Shown: one piece after another, positions 44,589-48,026 of the stretch | How positions within the stretch are numbered: position 1 is the stretch's first letter | Layout: every line of letters begins with the position of its first letter | Position numbers and translations under genes: made by a program | Notes under the pieces: model-generated | Database searches by the model: none | Seen by the model: the letters and a program-made list of their open reading frames with translations, nothing else | What the model was told of the DNA's origin: nothing | Assembly: GCF_000718015.1 (NCBI RefSeq) | Contig: NZ_JODY01000001.1 | Location: 372,001-436,000 of the forward strand | From: Streptomyces catenulae | Lineage (GTDB): Bacteria; Actinomycetota; Actinomycetes; Streptomycetales; Streptomycetaceae | Direction of reading: 5' to 3' | DNA: 64,000 bases

Positions 44589-45701
44589 ATGAAACTCTTC
44601 CGCAGCTCCGCCGGTGTCGGCGCCATGGCGCTGGCAGGCGCCCTCGCCCTCTCCGCCACCTCGCCCGACACCGCCCGCGCCGCCCCGCCCGCGAAGACGC
44701 GGGTGGCGGCGGACAAGGTCACGCCGCAGGGGCGGACGACCTTACGCGGGGCGGACCCCAGCGTGCTGAGGGTCGGCGGCACCTATATCGCCGTCAAGGC
44801 GGCGGCCGGTGGCATCGTCGTACGGCAGGCCCCGTCCCCGGACGGTCTGGCCTCGGCCCCCGCCAAGAAGATCTGGTCGAACCCGAACGGTCTGCAGGAC
44901 GTCTGGGCCCCGGAGATCGTGCGGGACAACGGCCGCTACTACGTCTACTTCACGGGCGGCCGCAGCTCCGCCCACCGGATGTACGTCATCAGCTCCACCC
45001 GCCCGGACGGCGGCTACACCGCCGAGAAGAAGCTGGCCCTGCCGGACGACCGGTGGGCCATCGACGGGACGCTCTTCACCTTCGGGGGGAAGCGCTGGTT
45101 CGTCTGGTCGGGCTGGTCGGGCGGCAGCGCCAACGAACAGAACCTCTATCTGGCCCGGATGAGCGACCCGGCCACCCCGACCGGGAAGCGGTACCTCATC
45201 TCGCAGCCCCGCGAGAAGTGGGAACGGAAGAAGGGCAACCCCTACGTCAACGAGGCACCGGAGGCGATCAAGGACCCCAACGGGCAACTGCACATCGTCT
45301 ACTCCGCCAACGGCAGCTGGACCGATCAGTACTGCCTGGGCGAGCTGCGGCTCAAGAAGGGCGGCGACCCGACGAAGATCTGGGACTGGTACAAGTCCAA
45401 CGGCTGCCTCTTCGGCTCGCACCGCGACACGATGATGCCCGGCTGGGACCCGACGCTGCACGTCGACGGCCCAGGCCACCACACGTTCGCCCTGCTCGAC
45501 GGGGACATCAACACGAGCCCGCCGGGCGGCAAGAGGTTCCCCATGATGTTCCACGCGGTCGCCAAGGGAACGCCGTACAAGTGGGCCAACCGCTACTGGT
45601 ACACCGGCTCGTTCGTCTGGTGGGGCAACACCACCTACCGGCGCGCCCACGTCCCCGGACCGACCAGCGACAAGGGGTACAGCCTCAAGTTCTTCGAGTG
45701 A
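44589..45701 (+). CDS. Secreted GH43 glycoside hydrolase
   Basis: 370 residues with a Sec signal peptide (MKLFRSSAGV; cleavage near ARA-AP, about 31). Five-bladed propeller of family 43: catalytic base candidate Asp56 (RGADPSVLRVGG), VWAPEIVRDNGRYYVYF, the pKa-modulating Asp in RWAIDGTLFTFGGK and a general-acid Glu in NEAPEAIKDPNGQLHIVYS. Expected substrates are arabinan or arabinoxylan side chains. ATG 44589 has AGGAAAGAG just upstream; the frame stays open upstream without other support. Ends at a strong terminator. Confidence 0.88.
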   Translation: MKLFRSSAGVGAMALAGALALSATSPDTARAAPPAKTRVAADKVTPQGRTTLRGADPSVLRVGGTYIAVKAAAGGIVVRQAPSPDGLASAPAKKIWSNPNGLQDVWAPEIVRDNGRYYVYFTGGRSSAHRMYVISSTRPDGGYTAEKKLALPDDRWAIDGTLFTFGGKRWFVWSGWSGGSANEQNLYLARMSDPATPTGKRYLISQPREKWERKKGNPYVNEAPEAIKDPNGQLHIVYSANGSWTDQYCLGELRLKKGGDPTKIWDWYKSNGCLFGSHRDTMMPGWDPTLHVDGPGHHTFALLDGDINTSPPGGKRFPMMFHAVAKGTPYKWANRYWYTGSFVWWGNTTYRRAHVPGPTSDKGYSLKFFE

Positions 45702-45723
45702 GCGGCCACGGTCGCCACGCCCC

Positions 45724-45764
45724 GTCCGCCCGCCGTCCCGGCCACCCCGGGACGGCGGGCGGAC
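45724..45764. terminator. 18-bp-stem hairpin terminator
   Basis: Perfect 18-bp inverted repeat (45724-45741 with 45747-45764, 5-nt loop) 22 nt after the GH43 stop. It separates that gene from the M-box transcript that begins about 140 nt later. Confidence 0.85.
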
Positions 45765-45890
45765 CGCTTCCCGAGCCCCCGGCCGTACGCCACGGAGGGC
45801 CCGGCGGCGGTGCGCGGAGCGTTTCCGTGCTCCTGCCCACGATGCGGTCAAGAGTCGGCAATCGGCGGCGATATCGGGGGCCGAGCGGAA

Positions 45891-45896
45891 TAGAGT
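45891..45896 (+). promoter_or_regulatory. -10-like TAGAGT for the M-box transcript
   Basis: TAGAGT lies about 18 nt before the first paired base of the M-box aptamer; transcription would start near 45903. No clear -35 is seen. The spacing to the aptamer is right for a riboswitch leader. Confidence 0.5.
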
Positions 45897-45913
45897 GATA
45901 AGCGTTTGAAGGG

Positions 45914-46080
45914 CACCTCGTTCGGTGAGGCGTCTGCACGGACACAGGCCACTGACCCGACGACGTCGAGAGACGCCCAGGTTCAGGACACCTCTCCCCG
46001 GCCCAAGGGGTGAGGCCAAGTGGCTTCCCGCTCGCGTGGGATCACGCCGTGCAGTGCCAAAGCTCTGACGAGTCGGGGTG
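45914..46080 (+). ncRNA. M-box (ykoK) magnesium riboswitch aptamer
   Basis: Primary sequence aligns by eye with the Bacillus ykoK M-box over its conserved core: TTCGGTGAGGC near the start, GGACACAGGCCACTG, GTCGAGAGACGCC in the middle and GTGCAGTGCCAAAGCTCTGACGAG near the end. The outer helix forms between CTCGT (45917-45921) and ACGAG (46068-46072). This RNA class binds Mg2+ and turns genes off when Mg2+ is plentiful. It lies 300 nt upstream of an NRAMP-related transporter, a gene type known to be under M-box control in Clostridium. The expression platform is not a simple U-tract terminator. Confidence 0.85.
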
Positions 46081-46168
46081 AACCGGCCGCCCCGTGCGGG
46101 CCGGTCCGCTCCCTTGCCGTGTCGATGCCGACGTCACCCGGCGTCCCGACCGGAAGGAGGCGAGAGAC

Positions 46169-46246
46169 ATGACCAGCAGCGGCAGTGATCCGGGCCACCA
46201 TCGGCCCCGCACCCGCCTGTCCTCGCATTCTTCCGGCACGCGGTAA
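46169..46246 (+). CDS. 25-residue leader peptide between M-box and NRAMP gene
   Basis: ATG at 46169 with AAGGAGG 8 nt upstream, among the best ribosome sites in the window. The product MTSSGSDPGHH-RPRTRLSSHSSGTR carries two prolines and four arginines, no membrane or signal segment. Its stop lies 4 nt before CCTCCCG, which can pair with the NRAMP Shine-Dalgarno. Its place and Pro/Arg composition recall the Salmonella MgtL leader. It could be an untranslated coincidence, but the ribosome site argues for translation. Confidence 0.5.
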   Translation: MTSSGSDPGHHRPRTRLSSHSSGTR

Positions 46247-46250
46247 CCCT

Positions 46251-46378
46251 CCTCCCGCGCGGCCCGGCCGCGTCCCCGCCCTCCGCACCGCGCCACGGCG
46301 CCCGCGGCGGGCCGCGCCGCCGTGCGCGCGGAGGGCTGCCACGCGCCCCCTACCTCCCCGCACCCGGGGAACGGGAGG
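46251..46378 (+). promoter_or_regulatory. Possible translational switch: anti-SD, GC hairpin and SD
   Basis: CCTCCCG at 46251-46257 is the exact complement of CGGGAGG at 46372-46378, the NRAMP ribosome site, 5 nt before its ATG. Between them sits a stable hairpin (GCCCTCCGC 46278-46286 with GCGGAGGGC 46328-46336, inner CACGGCG 46294-46300 with CGCCGTG 46318-46324). Closing the outer pairing would hide the start; a ribosome at the leader stop codon would cover CCTCCCG and open it. Confidence 0.45.
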
Positions 46379-46382
46379 CACC

Positions 46383-48026
46383 ATGACCACCGGCACGACC
46401 GGACCCACCGCGGCGACACCGCCGACCGCGGTCCTCGACGACGCCCACACCGGCGACATCCGCGGCGCACTGGGCACCATCGCCCACGGCGACACCGCAC
46501 CCCGCACCGGACTCCCCGCGAAGCTCAAGACCCTGCTGGCCGTCGTCGGCCCGGGGCTGATCGTGATGGTCGGCGACAACGACGCCGGAGCCTTCGCCAC
46601 CTACGGACAGGCGGGCCAGAACTACGGCACCCACCTGCTGTGGACCCTCCTGCTGCTCGTCCCCGTCCTGTATGTGAACCAGGAGATGGTGCTCCGCCTC
46701 GGCGCGGTCACCGGCGTCGGGCACGCCCGGCTGATCCTGGAACGGTTCGGGACGTTCTGGGGCGCGTTCTCCGTCATCGATCTCTTCCTGCTCAACGCGC
46801 TCACCCTGGTCACGGAGTTCATCGGCGTCACCCTCGCCGCCGGATACCTGGGACTGCCGAAGGCCGCCGCCGTGCCGCTCGCGGCCCTCACCATCGTCGC
46901 CTCGGCCTTCACCGGCTCCTTCCGGCGGTTCGAGCGCATCGCCGTCACCCTGTGCGCCGCCTCGCTGCTGCTCGTACCGGTCTACGTCATGGTCCACCCG
47001 CCCGCCGCACAGATGGCCCGCGGCTTCCTCGTCCCCGAACTGCCCGGCGGCAGCGGCACGCTCTCCACCGCCCTGCTCCTGATCATCGGCATCGTCGGCA
47101 CGACGGTCGCCCCCTGGCAGCTCTTCTTCCAGCAGTCGTACGTCATCGACAAGCGGATCACCCCGCGGTTCCTGCGGTACGAGAAGGCCGATCTGTGGCT
47201 CGGCATCGTGATCGTGGTCATCGGCGCCGCGGCGATGATGGGCTTCACCGCCGCCGCGTTCGCCGGTACCCACGGCGTCGGCGCCTTCACCGACGCCTCC
47301 GGCATCGCCGCCGGACTGGCGCACCGGGCGGGCCGGACCGCCGGTGCGCTGTTCGCCGTCGCCCTCCTCGACGCCTCCGTCATCGGCGCGTTCGCGGTGT
47401 CGCTCTCCACCGCCTACGCGATCGGCGACGTCCTCGGGATGAACCACTCACTGCACCGCGGGGTCGGCCGGGCCAAGGGCTTCTACGCCGTCCACGCGGG
47501 CCTGGTGGCGGCCGCCGCGGCGATCGTGCTGATCCCCGGCTCACCGCTGGGGCTGCTGACCGAGGGCGTCCAGACCCTGGCCGGGGTGCTGCTCCCCTCC
47601 GCCACCGTCTTCCTGCTGCTGCTCTGCAACGACCGGCAGGTCCTCGGCCCCTGGGTGAACGGCGCCCGGACCAACGCCTTCACCGCCACCGTGATCGGCG
47701 TCCTGGTCACCCTGTCGGTGATCCTCACCGCCGCGGTGCTCTTCCCCGGCCTCACCGCCGCCACGATCGGGTGGCTCACAGCCGGATGCGCGGCGGCCGG
47801 ACTGGCGGGCGCCGGGTACGCCGCCGTCCGCCGCCGCTCGGGCCCCGCGCGGGCGCCGGTGGACCGGACCGGCCGGGAGCGGTGGCGGATGCCGCCCCTG
47901 GCGAGCCTGGAGCGGCCGGCACTGTCCACCGCCCGCAGGCTCGGCATGGGCGCCCTGCGCGGCTATCTGCTGGTCGCGATGGTGCTCAGCGTCATCAAGA
48001 TCGTCGAGGTGGCGCTCGGCCACTGA
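46383..48026 (+). CDS. NRAMP-related divalent metal (probably Mg2+) transporter
   Basis: 547 residues, about 11-12 membrane helices of the NRAMP fold. The helix-1 metal motif DPGN is replaced by GDNDAGAFATY (about 60-70), and the helix-6 MPH region by GTTVAPWQLFF, so it is not a standard Mn/Fe NRAMP. Similar changes mark the NRAMP-related Mg2+ transporters (NRMT). With an M-box upstream, Mg2+ import under Mg2+ starvation is the best inference. ATG 46383 with GGGAGG 4 nt upstream. Homologous frame extends upstream only as non-coding leader. Confidence 0.85.
   Translation: MTTGTTGPTAATPPTAVLDDAHTGDIRGALGTIAHGDTAPRTGLPAKLKTLLAVVGPGLIVMVGDNDAGAFATYGQAGQNYGTHLLWTLLLLVPVLYVNQEMVLRLGAVTGVGHARLILERFGTFWGAFSVIDLFLLNALTLVTEFIGVTLAAGYLGLPKAAAVPLAALTIVASAFTGSFRRFERIAVTLCAASLLLVPVYVMVHPPAAQMARGFLVPELPGGSGTLSTALLLIIGIVGTTVAPWQLFFQQSYVIDKRITPRFLRYEKADLWLGIVIVVIGAAAMMGFTAAAFAGTHGVGAFTDASGIAAGLAHRAGRTAGALFAVALLDASVIGAFAVSLSTAYAIGDVLGMNHSLHRGVGRAKGFYAVHAGLVAAAAAIVLIPGSPLGLLTEGVQTLAGVLLPSATVFLLLLCNDRQVLGPWVNGARTNAFTATVIGVLVTLSVILTAAVLFPGLTAATIGWLTAGCAAAGLAGAGYAAVRRRSGPARAPVDRTGRERWRMPPLASLERPALSTARRLGMGALRGYLLVAMVLSVIKIVEVALGH

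Follow-up and report, generated by a model that had tools for sequence, protein, structure and literature searches.

The 64,000-nucleotide stretch of Streptomyces catenulae DNA analysed here (contig NZ_JODY01000001.1, positions 372,001 to 436,000; hereafter the window) contains an M-box Mg2+ riboswitch upstream of a gene for a transporter of the Nramp family. The 298 nt between the end of the aptamer and the transporter start codon form a leader with a second conserved component, an upstream open reading frame (uORF) of 25 codons that starts at position 46169 behind the Shine-Dalgarno (SD) sequence GGAAGGAGG. Our verdict is that the locus consists of two stacked modules, of which the uORF is a Mg2+-gene leader element in its own right; this one element links four unrelated actinobacterial Mg2+ gene families and can stand without an M-box. 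The layout is as follows.

45910..46084, + strand: M-box (ykoK leader) Mg2+ riboswitch aptamer, full length (RF00380 match)
46082..46105, + strand: short hairpin adjoining the aptamer, ACCGGCC/GGCCGGT (from the sequence; unscored)
46109..46118, + strand: anti-SD-like CTCCCTTGCC, which could cover the uORF ribosome site (motif counts in leaders)
46152..46160, + strand: strong SD of the uORF, GGAAGGAGG (sequence and relatives)
46169..46246, + strand: uORF of 25 codons, MTSSGSDPGHHRPRTRLSSHSSGTR (conservation, frame test, model R1)
46184..46207, + strand: conserved uORF core AGTGATCCGGGCCACCATCGGCCC with a GGGCC/GGCCC hairpin (codon counts, modest covariation)
46235..46259, + strand: 5′ arm of the stop stem, comprising the last uORF codons, the stop codon and the following pyrimidines (covariation, fold of the window)
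46330..46347, + strand: 3′ arm of the stop stem, GGAGGGCTGCCACGCGCC, about 35 nt upstream of the transporter start (fold, covariation)
46353..46378, + strand: hairpin region with the transporter SD, GGGAGG (46373-46378) (fold)
46383..48026, + strand: NRAMP-related (NRMT-like) transporter, 547 aa (Pfam Nramp, match to EleNRMT 7qia)

The M-box match obtained with cmscan scores 127.7 bits (gathering threshold 44; E 2.7e-28) over model positions 1-169, the full length of the model; it is the sole Rfam match in the window at gathering thresholds and the only M-box in a scan of the genome. A preliminary description of this DNA had proposed an M-box from its core letters (GAGACGCC, CAAAGCTCT and an outer CTCGT/ACGAG helix), all of which we located in the sequence, and the significant covariance-model score confirms that an M-box does precede an NRAMP-like, probably Mg2+-importing gene. 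The coordinates given there are off by a few bases at most, but the stretch between aptamer and start codon, with its conserved uORF, had been overlooked. Several relatives show a hairpin of other letters at the position of the one adjoining the aptamer, as judged by eye. A sequence search of 45700-46400 found no intrinsic-terminator-like site, and no sigma-70-type promoter was found upstream of the M-box by consensus, which may not suit Streptomyces promoters; these often deviate from it.

Conservation of the uORF and its reading frame

The uORF has a core motif, SPG[HR]xRP, with rare AGT codons, and in-frame insertions and deletions distinguish its relatives. The core or a near-variant occupies the same place in the M-box leaders of loci encoding NRAMP-related Mg2+ transporters (NRMTs) and in most M-box leaders of the window's family, and the uORF or its core is also present in NRMT loci that have no M-box (L006, L007, L015, L021, L028, L029, L035, L045 and L063). 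No core was found in 57 of 192 segments, 48 of these being NRMT loci outside the close relatives. Among the 124 unique segments that do bear a core, 118 have an SD-preceded start by our rule; of the remaining six, four have one by eye (with another spacing or a TTG codon) and two are probably not real cores. The unique segments share descent, such that these and the following counts are not counts of independent events.

To read the frame, the core was located by its nucleotides alone, and the search rule demanded the SD but not the frame. The core is nonetheless in frame with the SD-preceded start in 117 of the 118 segments, at distances of 9, 12, 15, 18, 21, 27 or 36 nt, with a single exception at 31 nt. 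Because the start-to-core distances keep the frame in this way, we conclude that the reading frame is under selection.

The core is evidently also under selection at the nucleotide level. With identical uORFs merged (124 reduced to 112, some of the family genomes being the same as loci L002-L081), 106 of 112 unique uORFs use AGT for the serine ahead of Pro-Gly, compared with 1.0% of the serine codons in the transporter genes of the same loci, and the core prolines are CCG in 108 and CCC in 110. Covariation in the GGGCC/GGCCC hairpin is modest overall: 92.3% of alignment cells are paired versus 90.9% in shuffled alignments, and cells with two-sided changes number 6 versus 1.4, with one of 500 shuffles as high, while the count of pairs with two-sided changes is no better than in shuffles. 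Strong nucleotide conservation together with such a hairpin would suit an RNA structure recognised by a protein or another ligand, with the open frame incidental, but the multiple-of-three spacing stands against this explanation, which we consider quite improbable. The frame test similarly sets back a view of the uORF as RNA only, and the codon counts, together with the pairing-driven codon changes described below, set back a view of it as peptide only.

Occurrence before Mg2+ genes, with and without an M-box

RF00380 matches are present in 79 of 200 genomes of the window's family, presumably the Streptomycetaceae, as contigs common to this set and to the named loci suggest (for example G035:C30 and L014). 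We examined 111 M-box places from these, counting the window's own M-box apart and leaving out G120:C55, both G078:C32 places, G197:C52, G022:C194 and G141:C84; G141:C361:11906 has no sequence in the fetched stretches. By a strict rule the core uORF follows the aptamer at 91 of the 111. The genes behind all 111, classified by text motifs, are NRMT (63), MgtE (20), CorA (8), MgtC (3), P-type ATPase (1), glyoxalase-like (2), small proteins of two kinds (9), and other or unread (5); none of the 111 matched these motifs on the opposite strand. The core uORF is present at 58 of the 63 NRMT, 17 of the 20 MgtE, all eight CorA and all three MgtC places, as well as at others. A Pfam check of nine examples, with one each for MgtE, CorA and MgtC, returned MgtE_N, MgtC, CorA, E1-E2 ATPase, glyoxalase, an MgtC C-terminal domain and a transcriptional regulator, and found no family for two small proteins.

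Some of these M-box places have unusual features. M-boxes precede small proteins (MRIELTWP..., ...YLLDxxD...) at L083, L088, L113 and L135 and at L118, L122, L137, L154 and L190, the first four with another leader ORF, similar to MSPWSSPEPDPGHAHPSPL. At L187 and L191 an M-box and uORF precede a glyoxalase-like (VOC) protein, and at L014 (1697-1873 and 2523-2696) and L016 (1494-1671 on the minus strand and 2507-2682) paired M-boxes lie close by, in tandem or divergent.

A covariance model of the element built from 60 sequences (R1) matches 88 of the 200 family genomes; it scores 75.6 bits on the window, which is itself among the 60. From the R1 matches listed we hand-picked 40 places (L201-L240) that have no RF00380 match in the family scan, leaving out others (for example G062:C110, G054:C58, G046:C70, G042:C183, G131:C921, G090:C1 and G176). 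By the text motifs the element precedes Mg2+ genes at 31 of these 40 (CorA 18, MgtE 6, MgtC 4, NRMT 3), a small membrane protein at three, and other or unread genes at six. Rfam at a lax threshold (E up to 0.1) found no M-box at any of the 38 places scanned; L239 and L240, where the R1 match has an E of about 1e-4 and is probably due to chance, were left out. Short M-box-like letters lie upstream of the element at L202, L203, L205, L210 and L217, and the NRMT place L204 ends at a contig end, beyond which an M-box may lie out of sight. The places before a small membrane protein (MTTSRPYPRPAEAAVLL...) are L235, L237 and L238, the last a weak match with no uORF by rule.

Apparent loss of the aptamer is also seen among the NRMT loci. 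We fetched 80 of these and scanned 79 for RNA families (L079 was left out), finding M-boxes in 35. By eye there are apparent M-box remnants in L006 and L007 (the 3′ part) and in L045 (the 5′ part), and these loci read as cases in which the aptamer was lost and the uORF kept. The best reading of these distributions is that the uORF element is a separable module of actinobacterial Mg2+ genes, distinct from the M-box. The M-box-free leaders offer a means of studying the uORF apart from the riboswitch, and the three loci in which the M-box has apparently decayed are natural experiments. Separately, we note that M-box-free NRMT loci L006, L015, L021, L029 and L063 share palindromes in the promoter region that resemble TTGCGCAA or TTGCG...CGCAA, and that L029 and L063 appear by eye to have a divergent ArsR-type regulator.

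Across the class, a search of 394 genomes with strict filters gave R1 matches in six. Three belong to the window's genus, one of them a weak match; the others are G460 (weak, and with no visible meaning), G365 and G512. In G365 and G512 the match adjoins an M-box, and the genes, read by eye, look like the mycobacterial rv1535/ileS kind of locus (PMC12810186). Without filters, 16 of the 29 M-box loci collected across the class have an R1 match (E up to 0.055) immediately after the aptamer. Of these 16, 13 belong to genus g20, which is probably mycobacterial judging from its gene order and PE/PPE-like proteins; eight further matches listed for the 29 loci score less well or lie at other positions, and in some loci there is no match. 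The mycobacteria-like copies include MSSSDSPGRSPN (L248) and MSSSGSPDGYPG (L251), in which a proline is at position 7, as it is in the Rv1805A uORF2 peptide (PMC12810186); in the window it is at position 8, and its place shifts with in-frame insertions and deletions. The uORF2 peptide has been called mycobacteria-specific (PMC12810186), and our searches of an open-access library found no description of the uORF outside mycobacteria, but the similarity suggests that the mycobacterial uORF2 represents a single branch of an element more widespread in actinobacteria. If so, this unexplained uORF gains relatives outside the mycobacteria.

The NRMT-like transporter

The transporter gene begins with an ATG at 46383, and its product matches Pfam Nramp (PF01566) with an E of 1.1e-77; a search of its own genome with the protein matches only itself. 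Its best relative of solved structure is EleNRMT (7qia) at 168.7 bits; among the matches listed the next chain scores 67.2 bits, and none of the other 20 distinct chains exceeds this. The NCBIfam NRAMP models are all below their cut-offs (MntH 93.7 versus 430, nramp 51.9 versus 272.5, and Nramp_1 45.4 versus 50 bits). Altered metal motifs had been noted previously, and these are indeed present as GDNDAGAF from residue 64 and GTTVAPWQ from residue 239. Aligned with EleNRMT, the metal site is NDAGA / TTVAPWQ in the window and NDAGG / TTIAPWM in EleNRMT, and both NRAMP histidines that follow the helix-6 methionine are replaced (W245 and Q250).

NRAMPs are reported to have the site consensus DxxN-A/CxxM, and NRMTs DxxG-TxxA/T (PMC8806188). 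Helix 6 of the window's protein has the TxxA form, as do 80 of 81 sequences including its own, and this, with EleNRMT as the closest solved relative, agrees with an NRMT. Helix 1, however, has DxxA (DAGA) in place of DxxG, again in 80 of the 81 (the L046 reading stopped short), and the site is thus DxxA-TxxA and departs from the consensus. Because the asparagine is lost as in NRMTs, yet the glycine is an alanine, we use the label NRMT-like in preference to counting the protein as an NRMT outright; the sequences suggest a subclade that has alanine where NRMTs have glycine. The preliminary description had also recognised M-box control of NRAMP-related Mg2+ transporters, which is right but not new, as Nramp-related genes under an M-box were already described in 2014 (PMC4072509), and the pairing seen here is a known kind of arrangement. 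In that survey the M-box loci of Nramp-related genes are mostly from Clostridia and Deltaproteobacteria, and its main text, as available, does not contain the words Streptomyces or Actinobacteria.

The substrate of the transporter is probably Mg2+. The suggestion of a Mg2+ importer made at the outset gains support from the sequence, in that EleNRMT is the best relative, the NRAMP histidines are replaced, and relatives of the M-box precede MgtE, CorA and MgtC genes. A Mn2+/Fe2+ NRAMP that has drifted under M-box control would fit with the transport of Mn2+ as well as Mg2+, although not Ca2+, by EleNRMT (PMC8806188), and with the manganese-type M-box loci named in the mycobacterial paper (PMC12810186); the mycobacteria-like M-box locus L254 encodes a similar NRMT-like protein. 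Against it are the site letters and the histidine positions, which are not those of NRAMPs, and the predominance of Mg2+ genes among the other M-box targets in the family; we find it very improbable. Given L254, it is the manganese-type loci that may instead be Mg2+ importers.

Proposed leader mechanism and relation to known systems

Two features of the leaders bear on how they may operate. The first is the anti-SD-like motif in the linker, which 81 of 116 M-box leaders carry (shuffles predict 10.1) versus 9 of 44 M-box-free leaders (shuffles predict 2.2), with five of the nine retaining M-box-like letters upstream. A translational M-box platform that acts on the uORF would look like this, and such a platform is reported for the mycobacterial M-box and its uORF (PMC12810186). 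The second is the stop stem of the NRMT leaders, in which the final codons of the uORF, stop included, are paired to a segment located some 35 nt upstream of the transporter gene. In 57 NRMT leaders 88.5% of cells are paired versus 85.1% in shuffles, and two-sided changes number 40 versus 12.0 (sd 2.8), with none of 500 shuffles as high on both measures and slid versions of the stem only 38-52% paired; counts of pair types alone are weaker (42 of 500 shuffles reach the same level). The stem is present in the fold of the window's sequence, and the opening energy of the transporter ribosome binding site in the window is about 8.5 kcal/mol. The pairing also drives codons, a C-G to U-A change turning a Thr codon into a Met codon in 10 of the 57 leaders. 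A consensus fold of 16 CorA leaders likewise places the last uORF codons in a stem, with two-sided changes at 12 of 29 pairs and no control; the MgtE and MgtC leader sets, of four each, are too few to fold.

We lean towards the interpretation that the locus is a composite Mg2+ leader, in which the M-box gates translation of the uORF and the uORF attenuates the gene for the NRMT-like importer. The aptamer would sense Mg2+. At high Mg2+ it would fold, the linker anti-SD would hide the uORF SD, and initiation would be blocked, whereas at low Mg2+ the SD would open and ribosomes would start the 25-codon uORF. They would then cross a slow, structured beginning (rare AGU codons, SPG[HR]xRP and the hairpin), and translation up to a stop codon buried in a long stem would decide expression of the transporter, whether by termination-reinitiation coupling, by keeping Rho off the untranslated leader, or by some other refolding. 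The importer would in this way be made when Mg2+ is scarce.

Several observations weigh against this interpretation. By the strict rule 20 of the 111 M-box places have no core, and 35 of the 116 M-box leaders have no anti-SD by the motif used. The window's uORF has Thr at position 2, unlike most of its relatives, and the codon-level constraint might stem from RNA structure alone. The controls for the stop stem cover NRMT leaders; CorA leaders, of which the alignment of 18 is loose, may have a comparable stem. Finally, a simple release of the transporter ribosome binding site by a ribosome parked at the uORF stop fared poorly as a coupling step: in 69 leaders folded in this way the opening energy was lower by more than 1 kcal/mol in 24 and higher in 15, and the mean change was only -0.26 kcal/mol.

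One competing account is that the uORF is only a relay: the M-box sets its translation, the translated uORF couples to the gene or protects it from Rho, and the peptide and codons hold no signal. The association of the anti-SD with the M-box, the control of a uORF by the mycobacterial M-box through a translational platform and Rho (PMC12810186), and the tracking of RNA pairing by the C-terminal residues of the uORF all agree with it. But copies of the element that have no M-box precede CorA, MgtE and MgtC genes, and a relay therefore has nothing to relay at these places; moreover, conservation of the core exceeds the demands of a relay. We regard the relay as unlikely. The fixed core codons are not explained by it. 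Leader-peptide sensing of the mgtQ kind is a possibility.

In that account the uORF would be a Mg2+-sensing leader peptide with an acidic, proline-bearing N-terminus, at which ribosomes drop off at low Mg2+, the RNA refolds and the transporter is expressed. Position 2 is Asp or Glu in 106 of 112 unique uORFs, as in Salmonella mgtQ, in which Asp2 and Glu5 promote mgtB translation (PMC8092293), and several M-box-free proteobacterial NRMT loci have leader ORFs such as MDPYPSS, MDPWPSI and MPDPEPGP. However, one acidic residue with scattered prolines is weaker than the known motif, the conserved GA of codon 2 may reflect constraint on the nucleotides as well, the copy in the window has no acidic residue at this position, and conservation of the core is largely at the nucleotide level. 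On balance this account is doubtful, though less so than the relay. Leader ORFs of the MDPYPSS type are close in style to mgtL.

Such short acidic or proline-bearing ORFs resembling the mgtL type occur at the proteobacterial, M-box-free NRMT loci L039, L041, L047, L050, L046, L057, L069 and L071 (MDPYPSS, MDPWPSI, MDPSSSRP, MPDPEPGP, MNDSDSCP and MPDSDSYP). In the Burkholderiales loci L042, L046, L057 and L068-L071 a conserved ORF of 45-49 aa (MNFGLLLSQLPHV... style) that has a ribosome site separates the leader from the NRMT gene; it lies about 237-288 nt upstream of the NRMT start.

Beyond the composite leader favoured above for the window, we entertain more tentatively, as something short of probable, that the uORF element (SPG[HR]xRP with rare codons) is common to the Mg2+ regulon of actinobacteria and acts as a sensor of Mg2+ or of ribosome state in its own right. 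It would act alone before CorA, MgtE, MgtC or NRMT genes, or behind an M-box as the second of two sensors in series, and Rv1805A would be one branch of it, a leader and not a working protein.

Three known systems are closest to the window's locus. With NrmT/NRMT (Shin et al. 2014, PMC4072509; EleNRMT, PMC8806188) it has in common an M-box before an Nramp-family gene, the helix-6 TxxA, and replacement of the Asn, Met and both His of the NRAMP site; it differs in that the transporter falls in an actinobacterial and proteobacterial subclade with DxxA for DxxG, and in that the leader carries a conserved uORF. With mgtL of Escherichia coli and mgtQ of Salmonella (PMC8092293) the common features are a short ORF before a Mg2+ transporter gene, RNA stems that overlap this ORF and, for most uORF copies though not the window's, an acidic residue at position 2; the uORF described here has another sequence, a rare-codon core, and a position stacked behind a riboswitch in many loci. 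A third parallel is the M. tuberculosis pe20/rv1535 M-box with uORF2 (Rv1805A) (PMC12810186), which likewise has an M-box, an anti-SD and a small conserved uORF with its own SD before the gene. Unlike uORF2, the uORF of the window's type precedes NRMT, MgtE, CorA and MgtC genes, occurs also without an M-box, and in the NRMT leaders has its stop codon within a covarying stem.

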